Assembly: GCA_018817385.1 (NCBI GenBank)
Contig: JAHIUA010000035.1
Span: forward strand, 62,001 to 126,000
Length of the DNA: 64,000 bases
Source of the DNA: Pseudomonadota bacterium
GTDB taxonomy: Bacteria > Desulfobacterota > Desulfobulbia > Desulfobulbales > Desulfocapsaceae
Direction: 5' to 3'
Part shown: in pieces, positions 4,035 to 15,954 of the stretch
Layout: every line of letters begins with the position of its first letter
How positions within the stretch are numbered: the first letter of the stretch is position 1
Notes under the pieces: model-generated
Database searches by the model: none
What the model saw: the letters and a program-made list of their open reading frames with translations, nothing else
Told to the model about the DNA's origin: nothing
Translations under genes and position numbers: made by a program

Positions 4035-5213
4035 ATGCTCAACCATTACCGAGAACCGTATATCATAAGAGAGGTAGCCCCCTTTCATGTAGACGGCCTG
4101 GCCATTCCCTATCCGGAATTTGTTCCCAGACTCTATAATTTCTGCAAAGAACTTGGTTTTCGCAAAGGCTATATCATGCCCTCCCGGGCTTTTTGCTCCG
4201 ATGAGAACCAGGGCCTGCCCATCATTCTTCTTACCAAACATTTCGGCACCTTCCCCTTCAACCATGGCCGGGTCGGTGGCCTGCTGTCTATTAACCGAAA
4301 CGGCCCCCACTCACATCATGGAGACGACCTGGTAATCGTCCAGGCCAGTCACGTCGGCTATGACCCAGATACCGGCGAATATGGTGGCTACCGCAGGCCA
4401 CAGGTAAAGGGTGATAACCGTTGCGTCTCCTGTGGAAAACTTACTCATGTTTTCACACCATATCTCGAACAGTATCATTTCGCCCGCGAGCGTATTTTCC
4501 TGCGCCGAGATGAGGATGGACATCACCTGATTACGGCAAAAAACACCTTTATCGACTTTGGCTCCCACCCTGTGGATCAGGGACTTGTCCTGAAACTCTC
4601 AAATATTGTCGAACAGGACGAGCAGAGAATTATCCGTCCGTTCTCCCAAGCAAGCACCACCCAAACCTACGAGGTCTCCCCTGCCTTTAAAAAACGTCTT
4701 GACGATCAGGGCTATGAATGGAAATCCAACGAAGGGAAAAACATCGGCGAGCTATTGACCGCGGACCTTTTCTATTTCAAGGAAAAATTTCATGAAACGG
4801 ATGATTCTCTCGCCCTGGAAAGAAGCCTGATCGAATTCATGCCTGATATTGTCAGCGCCAAATACCCACCTCTACGGGCGGCACAGGCCAATGTCCAACT
4901 GGAATTTTCCCGAGTGGTTCAGTCCATTCGACGCGGCGAGGAGTACAGAGGACGAAGCCTCCTCTATATTACCGGACTCAACATCGATATCTCGGAATAT
5001 GAAGGCTTTCCGACAACAAATTATTTTGTCCCCTGGGCCGCCCACGTCCAACTCAAAGACGGCACACCGGAAGAATACACCCACCCCATTGAACAGGAAA
5101 AGCTATTCGCCAAGCTCATGTCCCAAAGTATGGAGAACCCCGACCAAACCGACTTAAAAGAAAATATCAAGCGCATGCTGAAAGCGCCGCACTTTGATAT
5201 CAGGGTAAGGTAA
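4035..5213 (+). CDS. LCIB/C-like (theta-type) carbonic anhydrase family protein
   Basis: The product is 392 aa with no signal peptide or membrane segment, so it is probably cytosolic. The ATG follows a strong GGAGGAG site. Motifs resemble the LCIB/C beta-CA-like family: C54-S-D56-E (CSDEN), a Gly-rich HGRVGGLLSI segment, H106 in QASHVGYDPDTGEYGGYRR, and C130-x2-C133-G. The Cys/His/Cys set would bind zinc and the Asp/Arg dyad would catalyse CO2 hydration. Family assignment is by motif recall, not a search. It stands alone between thiC and the hyf-like operon, followed by a strong hairpin. Alternatively it is an uncharacterised zinc protein with no CA activity. Confidence 0.6.
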   Translation: MLNHYREPYIIREVAPFHVDGLAIPYPEFVPRLYNFCKELGFRKGYIMPSRAFCSDENQGLPIILLTKHFGTFPFNHGRVGGLLSINRNGPHSHHGDDLVIVQASHVGYDPDTGEYGGYRRPQVKGDNRCVSCGKLTHVFTPYLEQYHFARERIFLRRDEDGHHLITAKNTFIDFGSHPVDQGLVLKLSNIVEQDEQRIIRPFSQASTTQTYEVSPAFKKRLDDQGYEWKSNEGKNIGELLTADLFYFKEKFHETDDSLALERSLIEFMPDIVSAKYPPLRAAQANVQLEFSRVVQSIRRGEEYRGRSLLYITGLNIDISEYEGFPTTNYFVPWAAHVQLKDGTPEEYTHPIEQEKLFAKLMSQSMENPDQTDLKENIKRMLKAPHFDIRVR

Positions 5214-5249
5214 CATCTTCCATGTGAAATCAGATTGAAGAAAAAGAAA

Positions 5250-5292
5250 GCCCGTTTCCTTTTTGTTTGCTGATTGCAAAAAGGAAACGGGC
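5250..5292. terminator. Perfect 16-bp hairpin (terminator-like)
   Basis: GCCCGTTTCCTTTTTG (5250-5265) pairs perfectly with 5277-5292 across an 11-nt loop. It begins 36 nt after the stop at 5213. The A-rich tract just before it makes a T-rich tract on the minus strand, so it could also stop leftward transcription. On the plus strand no T tract follows. Confidence 0.7.
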
Positions 5293-5761
5293 CCATGAGT
5301 ATGCCATGCCTCAACAAAAAGAGAGCAAACAATTTTACAAAAAAAAGTTTCCCCTGCCTGGCAGGTTAATCAGCTCGTGCAATCCCTGAGTATGTGGAAT
5401 CGTTGAAGAGGGCTTACGATTCCCCCAGGTTCAGGTACATATGAGCGACACCGGAGCAGAACAAAAAAGAAAAAAGTAGTTGACTTTTACTGAATAGAAA
5501 TTCATAATCGTCCGATTTTGTAAGTCGCCAGCCGTGGAATCCACCTCTGTGTTTTTCCTTTTCCAATGACCGACGACGATGGCAATGTCTTTTCTGACAC
5601 TGTTATTACCGTGGGTATCATCCCAATCTTCTCCACATTTATAGGTTTGACAAGTTACAAATTCATTGGAGAACTCCAGCTAGTCGCGGCAATGATTTTC
5701 TTTATAAAAATAAAAGCAATAATCAGCTCCCCCCTTTTATCGAAGTGACACAAGAGGACAT
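5293..5761. other. Leader region of the hyf-like operon
   Basis: This is about 470 nt without a supported gene. It contains the sigma-70-like promoter at 5480-5508 and then a leader of about 245 nt. A 60-codon frame at 5566-5748 has no ribosome binding site and was not accepted. Confidence 0.6.
5480..5508 (+). promoter_or_regulatory. Sigma-70-like promoter of the hyf-like operon
   Basis: TTGACT (5480-5485), a 17-nt spacer and CATAAT (5503-5508) each match the -35 and -10 consensus at 5 of 6 positions. It is the best promoter-like sequence between the upstream terminator and the first operon gene. Confidence 0.6.
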
Positions 5762-7720
5762 ATGAATATATTTTTTCTCGCTTTACTGCTCATTGGAGTT
5801 GGTGGAACACAGGCACTTACTACCTTCAAACGTTATTCGTTGATGAAAACCGGCGCAGTCCTGGCTATCATCACTGGCTGCAGCATTGGCGCCGTTGATG
5901 CGGCAACTCGGCTGCTTCAGCATGCTGAGCCGGTGATTTACACCCATAGCTGGTTGCAGATTTTCACCTTCTCTCTCAAGATTGATGCCGTTTCAGCCTT
6001 TTTTCTGGTACCGGTTTTCGCCATTTCTGCCATAGCCGCCCTGTACAGCTTTCAATATCTCCATGATGCAAAACGGGCAGCAGGCACCGCCATTAATTAT
6101 TTCTTTTACGCCCTTCTCATCATCTCAATGGCCCTTGTGGTCTGTGCGAATAACCTTATCTCCTTCGCCCTTGCCTGGGAGCTGATGTCTGTCGCATCAT
6201 TTTTTCTGGTTATTTATGATGTCCATAAAAAGGCCACCAGGGGTGCTGGATATATCTATTTTATTTTTACCCAGGCTGGAGCCCTTTTTATTTTTGCCGG
6301 TTTCGGTTTCCTCTACTCACACACCGGCACCTTTGGATTTGAAGCCCTTGCCTCTATTCCCGATTCGGCCAAACTTATTGCCTTTATTCTTATTCTCATC
6401 GGCTGTGGCTCCAAGGCGGGTATCATGCCTCTCCATGTCTGGCTACCCTATGCCCATCCCGCTGCCCCAAGTCATGTTTCCGCTGTCATGTCCGGCGTCA
6501 TGATCAAGATGGGTATTTATGGTATTGTCCGCTTCTATCTCCTCCTAGAACCGACATCTGTCGTTTTCGGCCAGATCGTTATCATTCTCGGCATCAGCTC
6601 CGGTATCCTCGGGGTAGTCTATGCCATCGGCAAGCAGGACATCAAAAAGATGCTTGCCTACTCCAGCGTCGAGAATATCGGCATCATCCTCCTCGGTCTC
6701 GGTGTCGGCATGCTGGGCGCAGCATCTGGTAACAAGACCATGGCCGCATTTGGCTTTGCCGGTGGCCTGCTCCATGTCTTCAATCACTCAATTTTCAAAT
6801 CACTGCTCTTCATGGGAGCAGGCTCTGTTCTTCATCAGACCAAAACCGGGGCGAGCAACCAGCTTGGCGGCCTGATGAAAACCATGCCGGTTACTGGCCG
6901 TAGCCTACTCATCGGTTCCATCTCCATCTCCGGCCTGCCGCCGTTCAACGGTTTTATCAGTGAGTTTCTCATCTATTACGGGGCAATCCACGGCCTTTCA
7001 CTCCATGGCGCATCATTTGTCCTCTCTGCTCTGGCAATTATAGCCCTGGCAGTTATCGGCGCACTGGCAGCAGCAGCCTTTACCAAATTCATTGGCGTAG
7101 TTTTTCTTGGTGAACCACGCACTGCCAATGCCGCCAATGCATGCGAAGCCGGCGTCCTCATGGGAACAGCCCTCTCGTTGCTGGCAGCTGCTTGTCTTAT
7201 CATCGGTATCTGGCCTTATTACTTTGTCCAGGCAGCCTTCCTGGTAACCCAGGCAATTCCACTGGTTGCCGACTATACAACGACTGATTTCATGCCGATC
7301 ATGACCAATATTTCCCGTACGGCTGCTCTCTTCATCTTCCTGTTTATCATTGTCACAGTTCTCAGAAAGATTTTTTATATCGGTAAAGAAGTCACCAAAT
7401 CCGGAACCTGGGGCTGTGGCTTCACCCAGCCAACAGTTCGAATGCAGTACACCGGAACATCTTATGCAGACAGTATGGTTGATTTTTTTCGACCCTTTAT
7501 CCGAGTACAAAAAAAGTACTCCGGAATAGAGAAGATTTTCCCTGGCAAGACAACCTACAGCTCGCACACACTTGATACCTCTGAAATCGGGCTGAACTTC
7601 TTTGTTGTCCGCCCGGTTCTCTATCTCCTTAGCAAGCTACGCTGGATCCAACACGGTAACATCCAGCTCTATATCGGTTACATTGTGCTGGCCATTGTGG
7701 TTATGCTCATCTTTATATAG
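5762..7720 (+). CDS. hyfB: HyfB-like antiporter-type membrane subunit of an Ehr complex
   Basis: The product is 652 aa with many hydrophobic helices. It belongs to the NuoL/M/N-Mrp antiporter superfamily, with the signature SKAGIMPLHVWLPYAHPAAPSHVSAV at roughly residues 218-243 written in part. In hydrogenase-4-like complexes this subunit forms part of the ion-translocating arm. The ATG is preceded by GAGG. It is the first gene of a co-directional run 5762-13040 with gaps or overlaps of only a few bases. The C-terminal third carries a further cytosolic or membrane extension typical of HyfB. The family call is secure; the pumped ion (H+ or Na+) cannot be read from the sequence. Confidence 0.92.
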   Translation: MNIFFLALLLIGVGGTQALTTFKRYSLMKTGAVLAIITGCSIGAVDAATRLLQHAEPVIYTHSWLQIFTFSLKIDAVSAFFLVPVFAISAIAALYSFQYLHDAKRAAGTAINYFFYALLIISMALVVCANNLISFALAWELMSVASFFLVIYDVHKKATRGAGYIYFIFTQAGALFIFAGFGFLYSHTGTFGFEALASIPDSAKLIAFILILIGCGSKAGIMPLHVWLPYAHPAAPSHVSAVMSGVMIKMGIYGIVRFYLLLEPTSVVFGQIVIILGISSGILGVVYAIGKQDIKKMLAYSSVENIGIILLGLGVGMLGAASGNKTMAAFGFAGGLLHVFNHSIFKSLLFMGAGSVLHQTKTGASNQLGGLMKTMPVTGRSLLIGSISISGLPPFNGFISEFLIYYGAIHGLSLHGASFVLSALAIIALAVIGALAAAAFTKFIGVVFLGEPRTANAANACEAGVLMGTALSLLAAACLIIGIWPYYFVQAAFLVTQAIPLVADYTTTDFMPIMTNISRTAALFIFLFIIVTVLRKIFYIGKEVTKSGTWGCGFTQPTVRMQYTGTSYADSMVDFFRPFIRVQKKYSGIEKIFPGKTTYSSHTLDTSEIGLNFFVVRPVLYLLSKLRWIQHGNIQLYIGYIVLAIVVMLIFI

Positions 7721-7729
7721 GAAGACAGG

Positions 7730-8665
7730 ATGAATTTTACTTTTTCTTTCACTTCACTTTTTTCACTTCTGGTCGCTTTTTCCTTGGCTCCCCTGTTCAT
7801 GGGTGTCATTTTAAAGGTAAAGGCCTTTTTCGGCGGCAAGCAGGGCCCACCATGGCTGATCAAGTATTATACATTAATCAAGCTGCTCCGGAAGGGCTCT
7901 GTCTATTCGACAAGCACGACATTTATCTTCAAGCTGGGACCGATAATCTCCTTTGTTACAGCCTTTATGCTGTTGCTCTTCTTTCCCTTTGCTGGTCTGC
8001 CGCCTATTCTTTCATTCCATGGTGATGTGGTTGTCCTCTTTTACCTCCTTGGTCTGGGACGTTTTTTTACCGTCCTTGCCGCTCTGGATACAGCATCACC
8101 CTTTGAAGGAATGGGCGCAGCACGAGAGGTATTTTTTTCTGCCCTCGCCGAGGCTACTATCTTTGTCATCCTGGCCCTCTTCTTTCGACTCAGTGGAAGT
8201 TTAAGTTTTGCTGAATATTTTTCAGGTACTCAAGTTGTCAATCTCTGGTCTCAGTCCGCGGCCCTGATCTTTTTAGTTCTTATCGCCCTGTTCATTGTTC
8301 TCCTGACGGAAAACTCTCGAGTGCCTGTTGATGACCCAGCGACCCATCTTGAATTAACCATGATCCATGAAGTCATGATTCTTGATCACAGCGGCCCGGA
8401 TCTTGCTCTTATTGAAATGGGTGCTTTCTGTAAGATGCTTTTTTACTCGGCCTTTATTTCCTGTCTCCTCTACCCCTTTCACACAGGATCTGCTCTATAC
8501 AATGTTCTCGTATTTAACATTATCATGACCCTGATTTACGCCGGGGTCGGCTTGGTCGAATCAATCACGGCACGGTACAAAATGGATATGGTTCCCAACT
8601 TTATCCTGACATCCTTTGCCCTGGTCTTTTTTGCAACTATTCTTACCATGGAGTTTGTCCAGTGA
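7730..8665 (+). CDS. hyfC: HyfC-like (NuoH-type) membrane subunit
   Basis: The product is 311 aa and strongly hydrophobic, of the respiratory-complex NuoH/HycD/HyfC family. Family features include GKQGPPWLIKYYTLIKL near the N-terminus, ENSRVPVDDPATHLELTMIH in the middle and a conserved acidic loop. This subunit joins the membrane arm to the soluble catalytic module. It starts 9 nt after hyfB, and its stop overlaps the GTG of the next gene in a GTGA arrangement, which supports one transcript and translational coupling. Confidence 0.93.
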   Translation: MNFTFSFTSLFSLLVAFSLAPLFMGVILKVKAFFGGKQGPPWLIKYYTLIKLLRKGSVYSTSTTFIFKLGPIISFVTAFMLLLFFPFAGLPPILSFHGDVVVLFYLLGLGRFFTVLAALDTASPFEGMGAAREVFFSALAEATIFVILALFFRLSGSLSFAEYFSGTQVVNLWSQSAALIFLVLIALFIVLLTENSRVPVDDPATHLELTMIHEVMILDHSGPDLALIEMGAFCKMLFYSAFISCLLYPFHTGSALYNVLVFNIIMTLIYAGVGLVESITARYKMDMVPNFILTSFALVFFATILTMEFVQ

Positions 8666-9318
8666 TCCATATATCCAATATCTTCTTGGCGATGATCCTC
8701 CTCTCAGTACTGCTTTCCCTGCGATCCAACCGCCTTATGGCTCTGGTCAAGCTCATGGCCTTTCAGGGAATCGTCGTTTCAGCAGTCCCCATGGTACTGG
8801 ATACTGCCCATGGTTTAACCTTCAATCTAATCATGTTTTTTATCCTCCTGGTTCTTGTAAAGGGCATCCTCATCCCAGGCATGATGTCCGTCGCCGTCAA
8901 TAAGGTTGTAGCCAGCAGGGAAATTGAACCGATTATCGGCTACCATGCCTCCCTCTTTGCCGGACTGATCATGATTGTTTTTTCAGTATACATAACCAAC
9001 CAACTCAATTTGGCCAGCTTGGCTGCAAGTCATAAACTGCTCCTGGTGACAGGTATCACCACCATGGGAGCCGGTTTAATCCTGCTCATGGCGCGCCGTA
9101 AGGCCATTACTCAGGTTATCGGTTACCTGATGATGGAAAATGGTATTTATCTCATCGGCACAGCCCTTGCCAAAGAGGTTCACACTCAATATGTGGTCGA
9201 GTTCGCGGTTCTTCTTGACCTCCTTGTTGCAGTATTGGTTATGGGTATTGTCTTAAACGATATCAACCATACCTTTGATGATGTTGACACTGCCCTCCTT
9301 GGACAGCTAAAGGATTGA
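8662..9318 (+). CDS. hyfE: HyfE-like membrane subunit
   Basis: The product is 218 aa, all hydrophobic helices, of the HyfE family (NuoK-like fusion). The GTG start overlaps the hyfC stop by 4 nt. Visible segments include ENGIYLIGTALAKE with the buried glutamate typical of NuoK-like subunits. In the complex it would add proton-relay residues to the membrane arm. No separate HyfD gene is present, as is usual for Ehr-type clusters. Confidence 0.9.
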   Translation: MIHISNIFLAMILLSVLLSLRSNRLMALVKLMAFQGIVVSAVPMVLDTAHGLTFNLIMFFILLVLVKGILIPGMMSVAVNKVVASREIEPIIGYHASLFAGLIMIVFSVYITNQLNLASLAASHKLLLVTGITTMGAGLILLMARRKAITQVIGYLMMENGIYLIGTALAKEVHTQYVVEFAVLLDLLVAVLVMGIVLNDINHTFDDVDTALLGQLKD

Positions 9319-9322
9319 AACT

Positions 9323-10753
9323 ATGCTCCAGTTTGTATTTTATATTCCACTGATTGTAGGAATTGCGGTTTTGTTTCTTCCTGCTAAAATAGGAAGAGTG
9401 GCCCTTTTTAGCACGGCTGTCATTCACGCGATGTTCACGGCCCTGGAATGGTTCAAGCTCAGCGGACCTCTGCACACCAGCTACTTCAGTAACACCCCTG
9501 AAGGCATGCTGGTTCTGGCCATCCTCTCCTTTCTCTTTCTTTTCATCTCCTTATACACAGTCTTTTATATGGGTGAAGTGGAAATGAGTAAGGAGCCTGT
9601 CTTTAACGGCAGTATGTTGCTCTTTCTCTCAGCCATGTCCATGGTTGCCATTGCCGATCATATTATTATGCTCTGGGTAGCCGTAGAAGCAACCACCCTG
9701 ATGAGTGCACCGCTTATCTTTGTTCATCGCTCCAAAGCATCTCTGGAAGCCACCTGGAAATATGTGCTCATCTGTTCCGTAGGCATTGCCCTGGCACTGC
9801 TGGGCTGCTTTTTTGTTATTTTTTCCATGGAAATGAGTAACATCCATGTGCCAATCAGTTTTAGCTCATTGAACACGGTTGCCTCCCAGCTTGATCCGGT
9901 GTGGCTGAAAGCCGGTTTTATATTTTTTGTTATCGGCTTCGGCACCAAAATGGGACTTGCCCCCATGCATACCTGGCTGCCTGATGCTCACAGTGAAGCT
10001 CCCAGCCCTGCCTCAGCTCTGCTCTCAGGGGCCTTGCTCAACTGTGCATTTCTTGCCGTATATCGCTGCCATCAACTCATGTTTACGGCCGGACTAGGGG
10101 ATTATTCGAGTAAAGTTCTTATCGCTTTTGGTCTTGCCTCCATGCTGGTTTCTGCTGTTTTTATCCTCAATCAGACAGATTACAAACGGATGCTGGCCTA
10201 TTCCAGTATAGAAAATATGGGCATCATTGCCGTTGGCATCGGCATTGGCGGCCTGGCCGCCTTTGGCGCTATGCTCCATATGATCCATCACTCACTTGTC
10301 AAATCCTCGCTCTTTCTCTCCGCCGGCAACATACTCCTCGGCTACGGCACCAAGACAATTGACAAAACAGGAAGTATGCTACGGCTGCTTCCTAAAACCG
10401 GTCTTACTTTTTTTGCCGGCTTTGCTGGAATTTCCGGATTCCCGCCATTCGGTCTTTTTGTCAGTGAACTCCTTATTATTCTGGGAGCCATCAAGGCTGG
10501 TCGTTACGTAGCAATCGGCATCTTTATCTTCAGTCTGATCCTTATTTTTGCGGGTGCCTCAAAACTCGTTATGCAGATGGTTTTCAGTGAAAAAGAGAAT
10601 GATGACATCCTTGTCCCTGAAAAATGGACCCGGGCGCTGCCACCCATTCTTCTCTTACTGACCTCACTGGCCTTAGTTATCTGGCTCCCGGATAGCATCT
10701 ATCAAACAATTCAAAATGCGATTTCATCCATTGGAGGCACGGTAAATGGATAA
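9323..10753 (+). CDS. hyfF: HyfF-like antiporter-type membrane subunit
   Basis: The product is 476 aa, an antiporter-family (NuoN/M-like) membrane protein. The signature GLAPMHTWLPDAHSEAPSPA is present together with the conserved Lys/Glu helices. It is the second pump-type subunit of the operon after HyfB. It begins 4 nt after hyfE and its end overlaps hyfG by 8 nt. There is no sign of truncation. Confidence 0.92.
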   Translation: MLQFVFYIPLIVGIAVLFLPAKIGRVALFSTAVIHAMFTALEWFKLSGPLHTSYFSNTPEGMLVLAILSFLFLFISLYTVFYMGEVEMSKEPVFNGSMLLFLSAMSMVAIADHIIMLWVAVEATTLMSAPLIFVHRSKASLEATWKYVLICSVGIALALLGCFFVIFSMEMSNIHVPISFSSLNTVASQLDPVWLKAGFIFFVIGFGTKMGLAPMHTWLPDAHSEAPSPASALLSGALLNCAFLAVYRCHQLMFTAGLGDYSSKVLIAFGLASMLVSAVFILNQTDYKRMLAYSSIENMGIIAVGIGIGGLAAFGAMLHMIHHSLVKSSLFLSAGNILLGYGTKTIDKTGSMLRLLPKTGLTFFAGFAGISGFPPFGLFVSELLIILGAIKAGRYVAIGIFIFSLILIFAGASKLVMQMVFSEKENDDILVPEKWTRALPPILLLLTSLALVIWLPDSIYQTIQNAISSIGGTVNG

Positions 10754-12266
10754 CCTCCTACAGATACAAAACGGACAGGCAGTGTCCCGGGCCGATATTC
10801 CTGACCTTGACTTTCCTCTCTTTCAACAGACTGTCCTTGACGTGACCCGACACAGTGGCTTTGTTGTGCAGTTTTTTGCCTACGAGGACGAACAGTCCAC
10901 TCTTAAACTGATCGCTGTCCTCCGCTCTGGACAGATGCTCTATGTCACAGGATGCTCACTTGCTGATGAGTATCCCTCGTTCACTCCTCACTGTGAAAAA
11001 TTTCACATGTTCGAGCGGGAGATTGCCGAACAGTTCGGCGTCCGACCCACAGATCATCCCTGGTTAAAGATGGTCCGCTATCATGAAAACTGTCGGGGTA
11101 AAGAGGATATATTCGGGAATGATTACAGCCAGGACATTCCTGGCAACTATCCCTATTTCACCGTGGACGGGGAGGCCATCCATGAAGTTGCCGTTGGTCC
11201 TGTCCATGCCGGCATCATTGAACCCGGCCATTTTCGTTTTCAATGTGCCGGGGAAAAGGTCTTCAGTCTTGAGATCCAACTAGGCTACCAGCATCGCGGA
11301 GCAGAGAAACTTCTCGAGCAGGCAGGACAACCCCTGAATCGCCTGCCGGTCATTGCCGAATCTATCGCCGGCGACACGGCAATCGGGCACAGTCTCTGTC
11401 ACTCTCAGGCCATTGAGGCCCTGGCCGGACTTACAGTTAATGATGGAGCAAAGATTGTCCGAACGATTGCTCTGGAACTCGAGCGTATCGCAAATCACAT
11501 TGGTGATCTTGGCGCCTTGAGTGGTGACGTTGCCTTCAATCCACCCATGGCCTATTTTGGCCGAATCCGCGGCGAGTTCTTAAACCTGACGCTTACCATG
11601 GCGGGCAACCGTTTCGGCAAAGGATTGGTCAGACCCGGTGGTATTGCCTTTCCTGTGCTGGCAGAACACCGCCAAATCCTGCGTAATAAAATTGCAGATG
11701 AAACTCCGGGGATAGCACATGTCTGTGAACTTCTTTTCTCGGCCCATACAGTGCTTGCCCGTTTTGAGCAGACCGGAACAGTCCCCCGCCATATCGCTGA
11801 GAAACTGGGTCTTGTCGGCTATGCAGGAAGAGCGAGCGGACTGCCGTATGATGCCCGGATCACCTTTCCCACAGAAGCTTACAACCAGGTAACGATAAAC
11901 AATAACAAGAAAACTGTTGGTGATGTCTTCAGTCGCGCCAGTGTCCGACGGGAAGAAGTCAAGCGCTCTTTGCAAATCATCCCTGAACTCCTGGCAAAAG
12001 AAATAAATGCAGAACCTGTTGCGGTTCCGGCATCCTACAGCCTTGCTCCTGATTCTTTTGTAGTCACCATCAATGAGGCGTGGCGGGGTGAAGTATCTCA
12101 CTGCCTGTTGACCGACAAAGACGGCTCAATACTTCGCTATAAAATTAAGGACCCATCGTTCCATAACTGGACCGGACTGGCCATGTCCCTGCGCAACCAG
12201 GGCATTTCAGACTTCCCCCTCTGCAACAAGAGTTTCAACCTTTCTTATTGCGGATTTGACCTGTAA
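10746..12266 (+). CDS. hyfG: HyfG-like fused NuoC/NuoD subunit lacking NiFe ligands
   Basis: The product is 506 aa. The N-terminal 1-140 is NuoC (30 kDa)-like and 150-506 is NuoD/NiFe-large-subunit-like (EIQLGYQHRGAEKLLE). In true group 4 hydrogenases two CxxC motifs hold the NiFe site. Here the N-terminal position reads ESIAGDTAIGH (about 205-215) with no CxxC. The C-terminus ends with isolated C493 and C502 instead of DPCxxC. The protein therefore cannot bind NiFe canonically, and the complex is best called Ehr (energy-converting hydrogenase related). The substrate at the vacant site is unknown. GGAGG precedes the ATG. Confidence 0.93.
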   Translation: MDNLLQIQNGQAVSRADIPDLDFPLFQQTVLDVTRHSGFVVQFFAYEDEQSTLKLIAVLRSGQMLYVTGCSLADEYPSFTPHCEKFHMFEREIAEQFGVRPTDHPWLKMVRYHENCRGKEDIFGNDYSQDIPGNYPYFTVDGEAIHEVAVGPVHAGIIEPGHFRFQCAGEKVFSLEIQLGYQHRGAEKLLEQAGQPLNRLPVIAESIAGDTAIGHSLCHSQAIEALAGLTVNDGAKIVRTIALELERIANHIGDLGALSGDVAFNPPMAYFGRIRGEFLNLTLTMAGNRFGKGLVRPGGIAFPVLAEHRQILRNKIADETPGIAHVCELLFSAHTVLARFEQTGTVPRHIAEKLGLVGYAGRASGLPYDARITFPTEAYNQVTINNNKKTVGDVFSRASVRREEVKRSLQIIPELLAKEINAEPVAVPASYSLAPDSFVVTINEAWRGEVSHCLLTDKDGSILRYKIKDPSFHNWTGLAMSLRNQGISDFPLCNKSFNLSYCGFDL

Positions 12267-12296
12267 GAAACAGAATATATTTAGAGGTTCATATAC

Positions 12297-13040
12297 ATGT
12301 TAAGTGTCATACAAAATAGACGGGAACAGGGATACAGGACAACTCCGTATCCCAAAGAACCGATCAATCTTTATTCCCGCTACCGGGGATTGCCTACGGT
12401 CCACCAGGACTGCGACAAGGCACTTGCCAGGCAGTGTGCAGAGGCTTGTCCCCAACAGGCCATTGATGTCGAGAGGATGGTTATCGACATCGGCCGTTGC
12501 ACCTTCTGTGGTCAATGCGAAATCCAGTCACAGGGAAAACTTGTCACCTTCAGTAACAATTTCGAGTTAGGCGCTTCCAGCAGGGAAGCCCTCTTTACCA
12601 GCGGAACCCTACCAGCCCTTGCTGAACACTCCAAACAGCACTTCAAGAGTCTCTTTGGCCGGTCTCTGCAGCTCAGACAGATCTCCGCCGGAGGCTGCAA
12701 CTCCTGTGAGGCGGATACCAACGTTCTCGGCACACCGTTTTTTGACCTGCAGCGCTTTGGTATTGATTTCGTGGCCTCTCCTCGCCATGCGGACGGTATC
12801 CATGTCACCGGTCCGATCTCGAACAACATGAAGGCGGCTGTGCTTTCAACCTATGAAGCCGTTCCAGCTCCCAAGGTAGTTATCGCCAGTGGCTGCTGTC
12901 CCATCTCCGGTGGCCCCTTCTGGGGCAGTAAAGATATCGTGGGTGACCTCAACAGCCTGATACCGGTTGACCTCTATATTCCCGGTTGTCCTCCCCATCC
13001 GATGACAACGCTGCATGCTCTTTTACAATTTTTTAAGTAA
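12297..13040 (+). CDS. hyfI: Ferredoxin-NuoB fusion (HyfH/HyfI-like) subunit
   Basis: The product is 247 aa. Residues 35-80 hold a ferredoxin-like module reduced in cysteines (C39, C47, C51-P and C68-x2-C71-x2-C74), which probably supports one 4Fe-4S cluster. From about 125 on it is NuoB/PSST-like, with GGCNSCEAD, SGCCPISGGPF and PGCPPHP providing the N2-type cluster next to the catalytic subunit. E. coli Hyf keeps ferredoxin (HyfH) and HyfI separate; here they are fused in one short protein. The start has GAGG upstream. It is the last gene of the operon and is followed by a strong terminator. Confidence 0.9.
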   Translation: MLSVIQNRREQGYRTTPYPKEPINLYSRYRGLPTVHQDCDKALARQCAEACPQQAIDVERMVIDIGRCTFCGQCEIQSQGKLVTFSNNFELGASSREALFTSGTLPALAEHSKQHFKSLFGRSLQLRQISAGGCNSCEADTNVLGTPFFDLQRFGIDFVASPRHADGIHVTGPISNNMKAAVLSTYEAVPAPKVVIASGCCPISGGPFWGSKDIVGDLNSLIPVDLYIPGCPPHPMTTLHALLQFFK

Positions 13041-13887: not shown

Positions 13888-15954
13888 ATGGGATATCAGT
13901 ACGTCAGGCTGGCAAACGAGCTGGAGCAACAAATATTATCGGGAAAATATAGCGCAGGAGAAAAACTCCCCTCCCTGCGCGCCCTTCACGCCAGTACCGG
14001 TCGCTCTATTTCCACTGTTTATCAGGCCTACATGGAGCTGGAGAATCGAGGCGTTGTAGAAGTTCGGGAAAAATCAGGATTCTATGCGCGCCCCTTGCAG
14101 AATGCTATTCTCCCCCTGCCCGCCAGAGGGCAAAAGCAGAGGAAACCGCACAAAGTCACCATTAATGCCTTATCTGAAATGCACAAGCGTTCCCTGAACA
14201 AACCTGAAATGCTCCCCTTTGGCGCAGCAATGGCCACAGCCGAACTTCTCCCCGGAAAACAATTAGCCGCAGCCGTTCGCTCAGTGGCTGCCAGTTACCA
14301 AAACTCCGACCGCCTCGGTTATGGTTTTCCATCAGGAGAACCGGAACTGCAAAAAGAGATTGGCAAGCGTTCCCTTGGCTGGCTGGAAGATGGTGATGAG
14401 GAAGAGATTATCATTACCCAGGGCTGCATGAATGCCCTAGATATCTGTCTGCGCAGTGTGGCCAAGCCCGGCGATACTATCCTTCTTGAATCACCAACCT
14501 TTCTCTGCTACCTCCAGCTCATTGAAGATCTCAACATGCAGGCCCTTGAAGTTCCGGCAGATCCGAGTAAAGGGTTACCCATTCACACCCTCCGCCAGGT
14601 GCTGGATGAACATGATATTCGGGCTGCCCTCCTCAACTCCACATTTCATAACCCCCTGGGCTATGAAATGGAAGAGAGCAGTAAACGACCACTGGTTGAG
14701 ATGTTCGCTGAACGAGGTATTCCCATCATTGAGGATGATATATATGGTGAACTCTTCTTTGGAAAAACCCGCCCCACCCCCCTTAAGGCTTTTGATCAGG
14801 AGGGCGGAGTCTTATACTGCTCCTCCTTTTCGAAATCTCTGGCCCCAGACCTGAGGGTTGGCTGGACCATGCCCGGTCGATTCAGGGAAAAGGTCAAGCG
14901 ACTCAAGTTCAATGCCACCATTTCCTCCCCCCAGCTCAATCAGCTCATCGTGGCCGAGTTCCTCGCCAGCGGCACCTTCGACAGACACCTGCGCAGGATG
15001 CGAAACATTCTCAAAAAACAGGCATCAGAAATGGCCCATGCCGTTGCCAGACACTTTCCACCCGATACCAAGATTTCAGCACCCAAAGGAGGACTCTGCC
15101 TCTGGGTTGAACTCCCTCCTTCGGTGGACAGCCTGGAACTTTTTCGCCTGGCAGAAAAGAAAAACATCTCAATCCTTCCAGGAGCTCTCTGTTCAGGAAT
15201 GGGACAGTATGATCACTGTATCCGTCTCAACTATGCCCATATCTGGGATGAACGCAAGGAAAAGGGGATGAAAACCCTGGCAGATCTAGTCCACTCTTTA
15301 ATGGAAGCGAGGAAGGGTAAAAAAACAAAGATTGGCGTATCAAGCAATGAGATCCGTATAGGCCTGAACACTGATCCGGACTTTCTTAAAATTGAGAGGA
15401 TTTGCCAACAACTGGAGAATAAAAAACCCATTGCCAAAATCCGTTTTCATCAGTCTATCTCCGGCAATATCCTCAAATTAATCAGCAGTCAGGAACTCCA
15501 TGGCGGATTTGTCTTTGGCGATTGCGAAGCTCCCCAATTTCATATCCAATCCCTGGCAACATTTCACTTGATGATAGTAGGTCCAACACGAATGAGAGAA
15601 TTCCTGACCAGTGCCGATTACCAGGACCTTGCGGCCCTGCCCTGGATCGGCAATCCACCGGAATGTCCCTACTGTCAGGTGATGGAAGAGAAATTTCATG
15701 CCAGAGGCTTTCAACCAAGAATCACCGTTACCGCCAATGAAGAGTCGGCAATACTCACTATGATAAAGGCTGGAGTAGGTCTCAGCTTCATGCTGGAAGA
15801 ACCCGCACGAAAACTCGCCGCAGAAGGCACTCTGGTGATCTGGGAAAAAGAGCGTTTTGCCTTTCCTCTCTCTTTTGTCAGCCTCAGGAGTGAGCAGAAG
15901 AGTGAGAAAGTCAGAACGATGGTCAAAGCCATAAAGGAGATCTGGATGAGATAG
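13888..15954 (+). CDS. GntR-aminotransferase (MocR-type) regulator fused to a LysR substrate-binding domain
   Basis: The product is 688 aa. Residues 1-70 are a GntR winged helix (ISTVYQAYMELENRGVVEV). Residues 95-475 are a class I PLP aminotransferase fold with NPLGYE (N255), EDDIYGEL (Y286), Schiff-base Lys K316 in SSFSKSLAPDLRVGW, and RLNY. From about 485 to 685 it resembles the LysR substrate-binding domain (IRIGLNTDPDF near its start, NEESAILTMIKAGVGLSFM later). Typical MocR proteins end at about 470 aa, so the C-terminal sensor is an addition. The ATG has a GGAGGAG site. The function is presumably PLP- or ligand-responsive transcription control; the target is unknown. It stands alone. 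Confidence 0.88.
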   Translation: MGYQYVRLANELEQQILSGKYSAGEKLPSLRALHASTGRSISTVYQAYMELENRGVVEVREKSGFYARPLQNAILPLPARGQKQRKPHKVTINALSEMHKRSLNKPEMLPFGAAMATAELLPGKQLAAAVRSVAASYQNSDRLGYGFPSGEPELQKEIGKRSLGWLEDGDEEEIIITQGCMNALDICLRSVAKPGDTILLESPTFLCYLQLIEDLNMQALEVPADPSKGLPIHTLRQVLDEHDIRAALLNSTFHNPLGYEMEESSKRPLVEMFAERGIPIIEDDIYGELFFGKTRPTPLKAFDQEGGVLYCSSFSKSLAPDLRVGWTMPGRFREKVKRLKFNATISSPQLNQLIVAEFLASGTFDRHLRRMRNILKKQASEMAHAVARHFPPDTKISAPKGGLCLWVELPPSVDSLELFRLAEKKNISILPGALCSGMGQYDHCIRLNYAHIWDERKEKGMKTLADLVHSLMEARKGKKTKIGVSSNEIRIGLNTDPDFLKIERICQQLENKKPIAKIRFHQSISGNILKLISSQELHGGFVFGDCEAPQFHIQSLATFHLMIVGPTRMREFLTSADYQDLAALPWIGNPPECPYCQVMEEKFHARGFQPRITVTANEESAILTMIKAGVGLSFMLEEPARKLAAEGTLVIWEKERFAFPLSFVSLRSEQKSEKVRTMVKAIKEIWMR

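Follow-up and report, generated by a model that had tools for sequence, protein, structure and literature searches.

What can a complex of the hydrogenase-4 type do when its large subunit no longer carries the ligands of a NiFe site? The question arises at positions 5762-13040 of the window (the whole 64,000-nucleotide stretch of DNA that was analysed), where six genes on the + strand encode a hydrogenase-4-like complex. The operon is tightly packed, with intergenic gaps of 9, -4, 4, -8 and 30 bp, and is preceded by a leader and by a further gene:

4035-5213, +, LCIB-type gene (predicted carbonic-anhydrase fold), accessory; 392 aa; PF18599 at E 4.4e-4, under the cut-off
5480-5761, +, promoter-like site (5480-5508; pattern match only) and a leader before hyfB that is conserved in near relatives
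5762-7720, +, HyfB, NuoL-like antiporter subunit; 652 aa; PF00361; NF005086 (hydrogenase 4 subunit B) under its cut-off
7730-8665, +, HyfC, NuoH-like subunit with a predicted altered E-channel; 311 aa; PF00146
8662-9318, +, HyfE, membrane subunit; 218 aa; NF008556 at E 9.6e-19, under its cut-off; no Pfam match
9323-10753, +, HyfF, second antiporter-like subunit; 476 aa; PF00361
10746-12266, +, HyfG, NuoC-NuoD fusion, large subunit without NiFe ligands; 506 aa; PF00346 and PF00329
12297-13040, +, ferredoxin-NuoB fusion; PF01058

Profile and Pfam matches identify a gene set like that of complex I and the group 4 hydrogenases, including antiporter-like subunits; the operon encodes no NADH module. 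A first-pass annotation of this DNA had described the NuoC-NuoD and ferredoxin-NuoB fusions, and both are present. It had also described a full membrane arm of HyfB, HyfC, HyfE and HyfF. Those four subunits are encoded, but HyfD of E. coli hyf is absent, so this is not the whole arm of hydrogenase-4. The ferredoxin-NuoB protein was found at 55 named loci, and hyfG, at least in part, adjoins it at all 55; the gene arrangement is therefore more than chance. Culturable relatives with the operon include, for example, Desulfogranum marinum and Desulfopila aestuarii, both among the named records. A chance or pseudogene origin is ruled out by the open frames, the conservation across the operon and the site residues invariant in 74 relatives.

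The large subunit has lost its NiFe site

When HyfG was aligned with HycE and HyfG of E. coli, all four NiFe cysteines proved to be replaced, by A208, T211, S500 and G503. The N-terminal CxxC reads A208-G-D-T211 within ESIAGDTAIGH (residues 205-215 exactly), and the C-terminal CYSC reads S500-Y-C-G503 within the terminal NLSYCGFDL. The absence of the N-terminal CxxC at about 205-215 and of the C-terminal DPCxxC, both noted earlier, is thus confirmed. The protein ends three residues past G503, with no C-terminal extension of the maturation-cleaved kind. HyfG has neither the four NiFe-ligating cysteines nor the cleaved extension that mark a group 4 [NiFe] hydrogenase. A lone cysteine at one of the four ligand positions occurs in a single one of the 74 relatives (L108), and a Pfam search of HyfG gave no match to PF00374. 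The fold is nearest to that of E. coli HycE (Z 38.1, rmsd 3.1, 489 residues). An alternative reading with an intact CxxC is ruled out: the alignment with HycE runs column by column through the regions of both motifs, and the frame of 506 aa is uninterrupted. As judged from the alignment, the NiFe site of the large subunit is lost.

Only C493 and C502 had been said to remain. This is correct near the C-terminus, but the whole of HyfG has nine cysteines (70, 83, 116, 167, 218, 327, 453, 493 and 502), and C493 is not conserved (32/50). C167 and C502 are kept in 50/50 and C218 in 49/50. We considered these three as a new metal site but did not adopt the idea: of 25 distant rows, 22 have C167, 4 have C218 and 21 have C502.

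The complex is of the Ehr kind

With its complex I/group 4 gene set and a large subunit that has neither CxxC motif, the complex belongs, as first proposed, among the energy-converting hydrogenase-related (Ehr; also Ech hydrogenase-related) complexes of Geobacter, Nitrospira and Margulisbacteria, to which it was likened by description (passages of PMC10284858, PMC6349859 and PMC7894505). In these passages the function of Ehr is described as unknown, as never investigated or as needing tests, in keeping with the earlier view that the substrate is unsettled. Compared by description with published Ehr, this clade differs in the one-cluster ferredoxin half and in the LCIB-type neighbour found in a subset of genomes. 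By profile, Ehr is widespread in Desulfobacterota: the large-subunit profile has a strong match (E <= 1e-116) in 62 of 296 genomes and any match at E <= 1e-60 in 74 of 296, the weaker ones including true hydrogenases.

The likeness to E. coli hydrogenase-3 and -4 (Hyc, Hyf) extends from the closest solved large subunit to homologues of HyfB, C, E, F and G, a hydrogenase-type proximal cluster and a shared proton path, whereas the NiFe ligands, the C-terminal extension, HyfD and HyfA are missing from this operon and the E-channel is altered. With complex I (Nuo) the operon shares homologues of NuoC-NuoD and NuoB and the antiporter-like pumping residues; unlike complex I, it is without the NADH module, the quinone His/Tyr pair and the tandem cysteines.

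Invariant residues occupy the vacated site

A search for conserved residues in place of the NiFe ligands, one of the checks that had been suggested, found E159, G209, D210, N494-S496, N498, Y501, G503 and D505 invariant in 74/74 relatives; the vacated site has not decayed. The proton path of the HycE type, whose residues are named in part of PMC9474812, is kept in all 74 (E159, R447, H251, E404 and R362). The position of HycE D529, which the same part of PMC9474812 describes as strictly conserved throughout the superfamily, is N498 in 74/74. His38 and Tyr87, the quinone residues of complex I (Nqo4 numbering), are I158 and G209 in HyfG. Loops 152-161 and 502-506 of the HyfG model have pLDDT < 50, and therefore no cavity can be read from it.

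What is reduced at this site? Neither the quinone His/Tyr of complex I nor the open cluster of MBS is present, which leaves the acceptor unsettled. Our tentative choice, at somewhat short of an even chance, is menaquinone, in a binding mode that does not use the classical His/Tyr pair; two matches to PF02621, a menaquinone-pathway family, in the window's genome support it. A passage of PMC6349859 describes some Ehr-bearing lineages without recognised quinone pathways, which counts against quinone as a general acceptor. The missing His/Tyr pair and tandem cysteines, and N498 at the position of HycE D529, also speak against a quinone.

Next after menaquinone ranks a small polar substrate. Here a non-quinone compound would be reduced by ferredoxin at D210/T211/K495/N498/Y501 with ion export, and the LCIB-type gene would be simply a co-regulated neighbour. 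The replacement residues are polar and invariant, the classical quinone residues are missing, and Ehr is present where quinone pathways were not found (the same passage of PMC6349859), but there is no candidate substrate and the pocket loops are those modelled at pLDDT < 50. We regard this reading as rather unlikely.

A hydrogenase-type proximal cluster follows a one-cluster ferredoxin half

The ferredoxin half of the fusion is predicted to bind one [4Fe-4S] cluster (C51, C68, C71, C74) and the NuoB half a four-cysteine proximal cluster (C134, C137, C201, C231). These eight cysteines are kept in 50/50 sequences, and C39 in 30/50. The proximal ligands, a CxxC plus two cysteines spaced as in HycG, are of the hydrogenase type in 50/50; the tandem cysteines of complex I cluster N2 are absent, with the CxxC C134/C137 instead.

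These ligands bear on a sulfane-sulfur reductase of the MBS kind, which would fit sulfur-disproportionating relatives. The nearest named records include Desulfocapsa, known for sulfur disproportionation. MBS of Pyrococcus furiosus is likewise a complex I relative without a NiFe site (part of PMC7684303). However, its chemistry needs a three-cysteine proximal cluster with a shortened motif, whereas all four cysteines at hydrogenase spacing are found here in 50/50, and the proton-donor glutamate E159 is kept in 74/74, whereas MBS is without MbhL E21 (part of PMC7684303). Because of these ligands we set MBS-type chemistry aside, and we consider an MBS-like enzyme highly improbable.

By its cysteine ligands, one of two [4Fe-4S] sites has been lost from the ferredoxin half in 49/50 sequences of the clade; both motifs are retained in 18 of 19 distant fused rows. 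The ferredoxin-NuoB fusion had been taken as the mark of a minimal form. It occurs at distant Ehr loci too (the 19 distant rows) and is usual in Desulfobacterota Ehr, so that this interpretation is not supported; the reduced part is instead the ferredoxin half. The lost site is, we assume, the one usually farthest from the membrane, which argues against a relay fed by a separate formate dehydrogenase (FDH-Ehr). None of 14 recurrent flank proteins, from clustered flanks of 55 loci, resembled formate dehydrogenase by eye. FDH-Ehr has been proposed for other lineages in a passage of PMC6349859, and a passage of PMC7894505 reports Geobacter Ehr subunits as more abundant with formate than in hydrogen-containing conditions; for the present clade we find it improbable.

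Pumping residues are kept and the E-channel is altered

In HyfB, the positions of NuoL E144, K229, K305, H334, H338 and K342 are kept in 36/36 relatives, and in HyfF those of NuoM E144 and K234 in 47/47. In HyfC, NuoH E218 and Y225 are both replaced by His and E228 by Asp in 45/45. HyfB and HyfF thus retain their predicted pumping residues, and the E-channel of HyfC is altered. Since two usual E-channel glutamates are changed, coupling may differ from the usual.

We conclude that the complex is probably a ferredoxin-fed, ion-pumping Ehr oxidoreductase of the complex I superfamily. Reduced ferredoxin would pass electrons to the single cluster kept in the ferredoxin half; from there they would move to the proximal cluster with its four cysteines in the NuoB half, and on to an acceptor in the rebuilt HyfG pocket, with E159 as local proton donor. 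Turnover in this direction would make HyfB and HyfF export H+ or Na+. The LCIB-type protein encoded next to the operon in some lineages may contribute to this process, probably by converting CO2 and bicarbonate into each other. The invariant non-NiFe site and the shortened relay provide concrete residues to mutate.

An LCIB-type gene adjoins the operon

The LCIB-type gene (4035-5213) lies outside the span of the first-pass annotation, which mentioned neither the invariant replacement site nor the altered E-channel. Against five LCIB/LCIC chains and 6kfs its model (pLDDT 70.9) scores Z 9.2-11.1, with the next match at 6.4, which marks an LCIB (beta/theta carbonic anhydrase) fold. PF18599 is matched by 10 of 13 relatives at E <= 1. 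A sequence-profile alignment to solved LCIBs gave two chance matches only. Candidate Zn ligands are C54, H107 and C133, both cysteines being present in 10/13.

The gene adjoins the Ehr operon, on the same strand, in the window and in 19 other genomes (20 in total), upstream in most and downstream in two (L046 and L052). No paper on an LCIB gene adjoining an Ehr complex was found in the open-licence literature; the neighbourhood is new here, the carbon link putative. It offers a gene-level lead to the role of Ehr. An obligate partnership was rejected: the search covered 49 genomes with named Ehr loci, of which 28, some perhaps incomplete, gave no LCIB match, and 20 of 32 Ehr loci with enough flank have no adjoining LCIB.

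Could the two work as one machine? The LCIB-type protein might dock on the NuoL-like HyfB end, its proton being moved by the ferredoxin-driven antiporter subunits, as a redox-driven CO2-hydration (or bicarbonate-dehydration) pump. This would be an anaerobic counterpart of cyanobacterial NDH-1MS (CupA) and DAB (DabA-DabB), systems comparable in their way of working, each pairing a NuoL-like subunit with a protein that is CA-like or hydrates CO2 (parts of PMC13144422 and PMC6981117); DAB2 joins a beta-CA-like protein with such a subunit (part of PMC13144422). Besides the fold and the adjacency, the outer neighbours vary, close LCIB relatives adjoin two very different Ehr operons in a tree of the fetched loci only, LCIB and Ehr presence is correlated in 36 relatives while LCIB is otherwise rare (7/296 genomes), and the window's genome has PF03598, an acetyl-CoA synthase family. 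Against this stand the Ehr genomes and loci lacking LCIB, a genome with LCIB but no Ehr (G040), three adjacent copies without the candidate Zn cysteines (L039, L042 and L044), the 548-bp gap with a promoter-like site between the gene and hyfB, and the Foldseek search, which by itself brought no LCIB chain within E <= 0.001 (best chains E 0.012 to 0.12). We judge such a pump unlikely. A DabA-type pump was rejected, as PF10070 (DabA) has no match in the window's genome; the neighbouring protein has the LCIB fold instead.

If the link holds, CO2 chemistry would in one more case be coupled to a pump of the complex I type, here in an organism whose genome carries an acetyl-CoA synthase family gene. 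A ferredoxin-driven Ehr with a two-cluster relay, acting through HyfB and an LCIB carbonic anhydrase, would perform vectorial CO2/bicarbonate conversion in anaerobic sulfur bacteria; the pairing would join DAB and NDH-1MS, and Ehr would gain a physiological role.

The leader before hyfB

The promoter-like pattern was found 16 times in the region against 11.3 expected. A known riboswitch was rejected: of the 13 Rfam matches at E <= 10 in 5200-5780, none attained the gathering score of its family. A 15-base leader pattern and its control, one mismatch allowed, each occur 19 times in the window's genome, with no excess. The leader consensus folds into a weak 9-pair hairpin, two pairs of which are changed on both sides.

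The large subunit has lost its NiFe ligands

The six hyf-like genes lie where the first-pass annotation had placed them, and their families are as expected, with HyfD, which E. coli hyf has, missing:

5762-13040, + strand: HyfB, NuoH-like HyfC, HyfE, HyfF, a NuoC-NuoD fusion (HyfG) and a ferredoxin-NuoB fusion, with intergenic gaps of 9, -4, 4, -8 and 30 bp.

The host genome is 5.38 Mb; among named records, Desulfocapsa, Desulfobulbaceae and unclassified MAGs come closest. The same annotation had proposed that HyfG lost its NiFe site, and alignment with E. coli HycE and HyfG bears this out: the N-terminal CGIC corresponds to A208-G209-D210-T211 and the C-terminal CYSC to S500-Y501-C502-G503. 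The window HyfG is 506 residues long and lacks the C-terminal extension that HycE has. Ten residues do not vary in its 74 relatives (49 named, 25 distant): E159, G209, D210, N494, K495, S496, N498, Y501, G503 and D505. A Cys occupies any of the four NiFe positions in 1 of 74 rows (L108, a single Cys). This constancy suggests that the site is under selection and so was rebuilt rather than decayed. Three further Cys are constant within the window's clade (C167, 50/50; C218, 49/50; C502, 50/50) and are found in 22, 4 and 21 of the 25 distant Ehr sequences, respectively. The structural model (pLDDT 84.6) matches HycE best (Z 38.1); loops 152-161 and 502-506 score under pLDDT 50, too low for the geometry of the pocket to be judged.

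The papers that defined Ehr are reportedly those of Coppi and of Marreiros and colleagues. Ehr complexes without CxxC are described in Nitrospira (PMC10284858; function unknown), Margulisbacteria (PMC6349859) and Geobacter (PMC7894505; role never investigated). A strong large-subunit match (E <= 1e-116) occurs in 62 of 296 Desulfobacterota genomes, and a weaker one (E <= 1e-60) in 12 others, this weaker set including NiFe hydrogenases, TGA-containing hydrogenases and a second NiFe-less type.

Electron relay, acceptor pocket and membrane arm

The ferredoxin half retains C51, C68, C71 and C74, one full cluster, while 49/50 clade sequences, all but L079 from Fibrobacter, have lost the ligands of its other cluster. 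By complex I usage, we take the lost cluster to be N6a and the kept one N6b, adjoining the proximal cluster. C47 is also kept (50/50), without known reason. Five further window-clade rows (L097, L098, L100-L102) have the one-cluster pattern; among distant fused rows, 18/19 retain both Cys motifs, L112 lacking one Cys of the first. L023, L116b and L119, distant rows outside those 19, have no ferredoxin half.

Proton-path residues were taken from the E. coli FHL paper PMC9474812, which gives HycE E193 as proton donor and D529 as strictly conserved. E193 corresponds to the window's E159, and HycE R478, H284, E437 and R395 to R447, H251, E404 and R362, each invariant in 74/74; the D529 position, in contrast, is N498 in all 74. 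Where complex I has its quinone residues (Nqo4 H38 and Y87), HyfG has I158 and G209. The NuoB half carries a hydrogenase-type CxxC plus two Cys (50/50), whereas complex I has tandem Cys there and MBS a catalytic three-Cys cluster (PMC7684303). By these residues, the complex does not read in sequence as a hydrogenase, a classical quinone reductase or MBS.

In the membrane arm, HyfB retains the equivalents of NuoL E144, K229, K305, H334, H338 and K342 (36/36) and HyfF those of NuoM E144 and K234 (47/47); the positions of NuoL R175, D178 and D400 and of NuoM K265 and H322 differ. HyfC is unlike both complex I and Hyf in having His at E218, His at Y225 and Asp at E228 (45/45), and its THLEL recurs in 21/21 distant rows. 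Ion pumping is likely.

The best-supported reading is a putative ferredoxin-linked, ion-pumping Ehr complex in which electrons would pass from the single ferredoxin-half cluster to that of the NuoB half, a two-cluster relay into a rebuilt acceptor pocket. Because the genome carries PF02621 (two matches), menaquinone is our tentative choice of acceptor, held at slightly under an even chance; the classical quinone residues missing from HyfG count against it.

An LCIB-type gene adjoins the operon

4035-5213, + strand: LCIB-type protein (lcib), 392 aa, whose match to PF18599 is weak (E 4.4e-4) and falls short of the cut-off.

PF18599 is matched at E <= 1 by 10/13 family members (best 6.4e-6). The model (pLDDT 70.9) gives Z 9.2-11.1 to five LCIB/LCIC chains and the CCM-related protein 6kfs (166-201 residues, rmsd 3.7-4.0), the next-best Z being 6.4; Foldseek also ranks the LCIB family top, but at E 0.012 or weaker. 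The gene is rare (7/296 phylum genomes including the window's, two of them weak). Of the 32 named loci whose sequence extends 1,300 bp or more ahead of hyfB, 12 have it next to Ehr:

Upstream of Ehr: L025, L027, L031, L032, L035, L039, L042, L044, L045, L070
Downstream of Ehr: L046, L052

Coordinates put it beside Ehr in genomes G008, G012, G020 and G022 as well, and G013, G076 and G158 also have it there, a regulator-like gene intervening before hyfB in G076. G002, G006, G014 and G018 have the same contig positions as L025, L027, L031 and L070 and were excluded from this second count, which brings the total to 20 genomes, window included.

This adjacency may be meaningful. Genes outside lcib vary among lineages, and lcib sits at the opposite operon end in L046 and L052. 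In the LCIB tree, L171 (G076) and L172 (G158) group with L169 (support 91/92), whereas the large-subunit tree places L171 in a distant subclade past a branch of 1.25 (82/100); by these moderately supported trees, close LCIBs adjoin two different Ehr operons. Co-occurrence points the same way, with p values that ignore kinship:

Genomes with both genes, LCIB only, core Ehr only, or neither
36 relatives: 12, 1, 2, 21 (p 8.7e-7)
Four distant-Ehr genomes counted as Ehr: 12, 1, 6, 17 (p 3e-4)
20 same-genus genomes alone: 9, 1, 2, 8 (p 0.005)

In the core-Ehr-only genomes (G001, G015) the contigs break off inside hyfB, and in the LCIB-only genome (G003) lcib homology is lost beyond about residue 297. 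Several observations count against a link. No LCIB match was found in 28/49 searched genomes of named Ehr loci; L028 has no adjoining lcib, although a copy is present on a different contig of that genome; and the adjacent copies in L039, L042 and L044 lack the candidate Zn Cys (inferred from conservation), the L039 genome having another, fuller copy. In G040, where a profile search of the genome found no Ehr match, the LCIB-type gene (L169, 7828-9030) is convergent with a gene at 5993-7696, a SulP-type transporter by eye. In the window, the 548-bp lcib-hyfB gap holds a promoter-like site and, near 5246-5294, a strong inverted repeat, so a shared transcript is not assured.

A bolder alternative is that Ehr and LCIB together form a CO2 pump, for which NDH-1MS (PMC6981117) is a comparison system. 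DAB2 joins a carbonic-anhydrase fold with a NuoL-like subunit (PMC13144422), and the window's genome contains PF03598 (acetyl-CoA synthase); a profile search of that genome found no DabA.

Flanking genes and other large subunits

The leader before hyfB (window 5510-5625) is conserved in L025, L027, L031, L032, L046, L052 and L070; of the 9 pairs in its weak consensus hairpin, 2 show changes on both sides, and no Rfam family scored above its gathering score. An HTH plus PTS EIIA-type protein (by eye) lies near Ehr in 15/20 distant loci, L171 and 7/55 named loci, possibly reflecting shared regulation:

Distant loci and L171: L102-L106, L108-L112, L114-L116, L118, L119, L171
Named loci: L057, L059, L060, L061, L067, L076, L078

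TrkH/TrkA genes (L032, L037, L050) and ClC channel plus universal stress protein genes (L061, L067, L076, L078), all by eye, lie near the Ehr operon and could indicate an ion-homeostasis context. At 13888-15954 the window encodes a regulator of 688 aa whose single chain combines GntR, aminotransferase (MocR type) and LysR substrate-binding domains, a fusion we take to be unusual.

Group 4-like large subunits L153, L154 and L155 (G173, G079, G191, with which G043 is grouped) have in-frame TGA-x-x-TGA at the N-terminal NiFe Cys codons, possibly double-selenocysteine ligands, and an intact C-terminal CxxC. The second type without NiFe Cys, distinct from Ehr (L150, L151, L152; G277, G096, G127), has Ser or Thr for the N-terminal pair, and its C-terminal pair is replaced by Ser and Glu.
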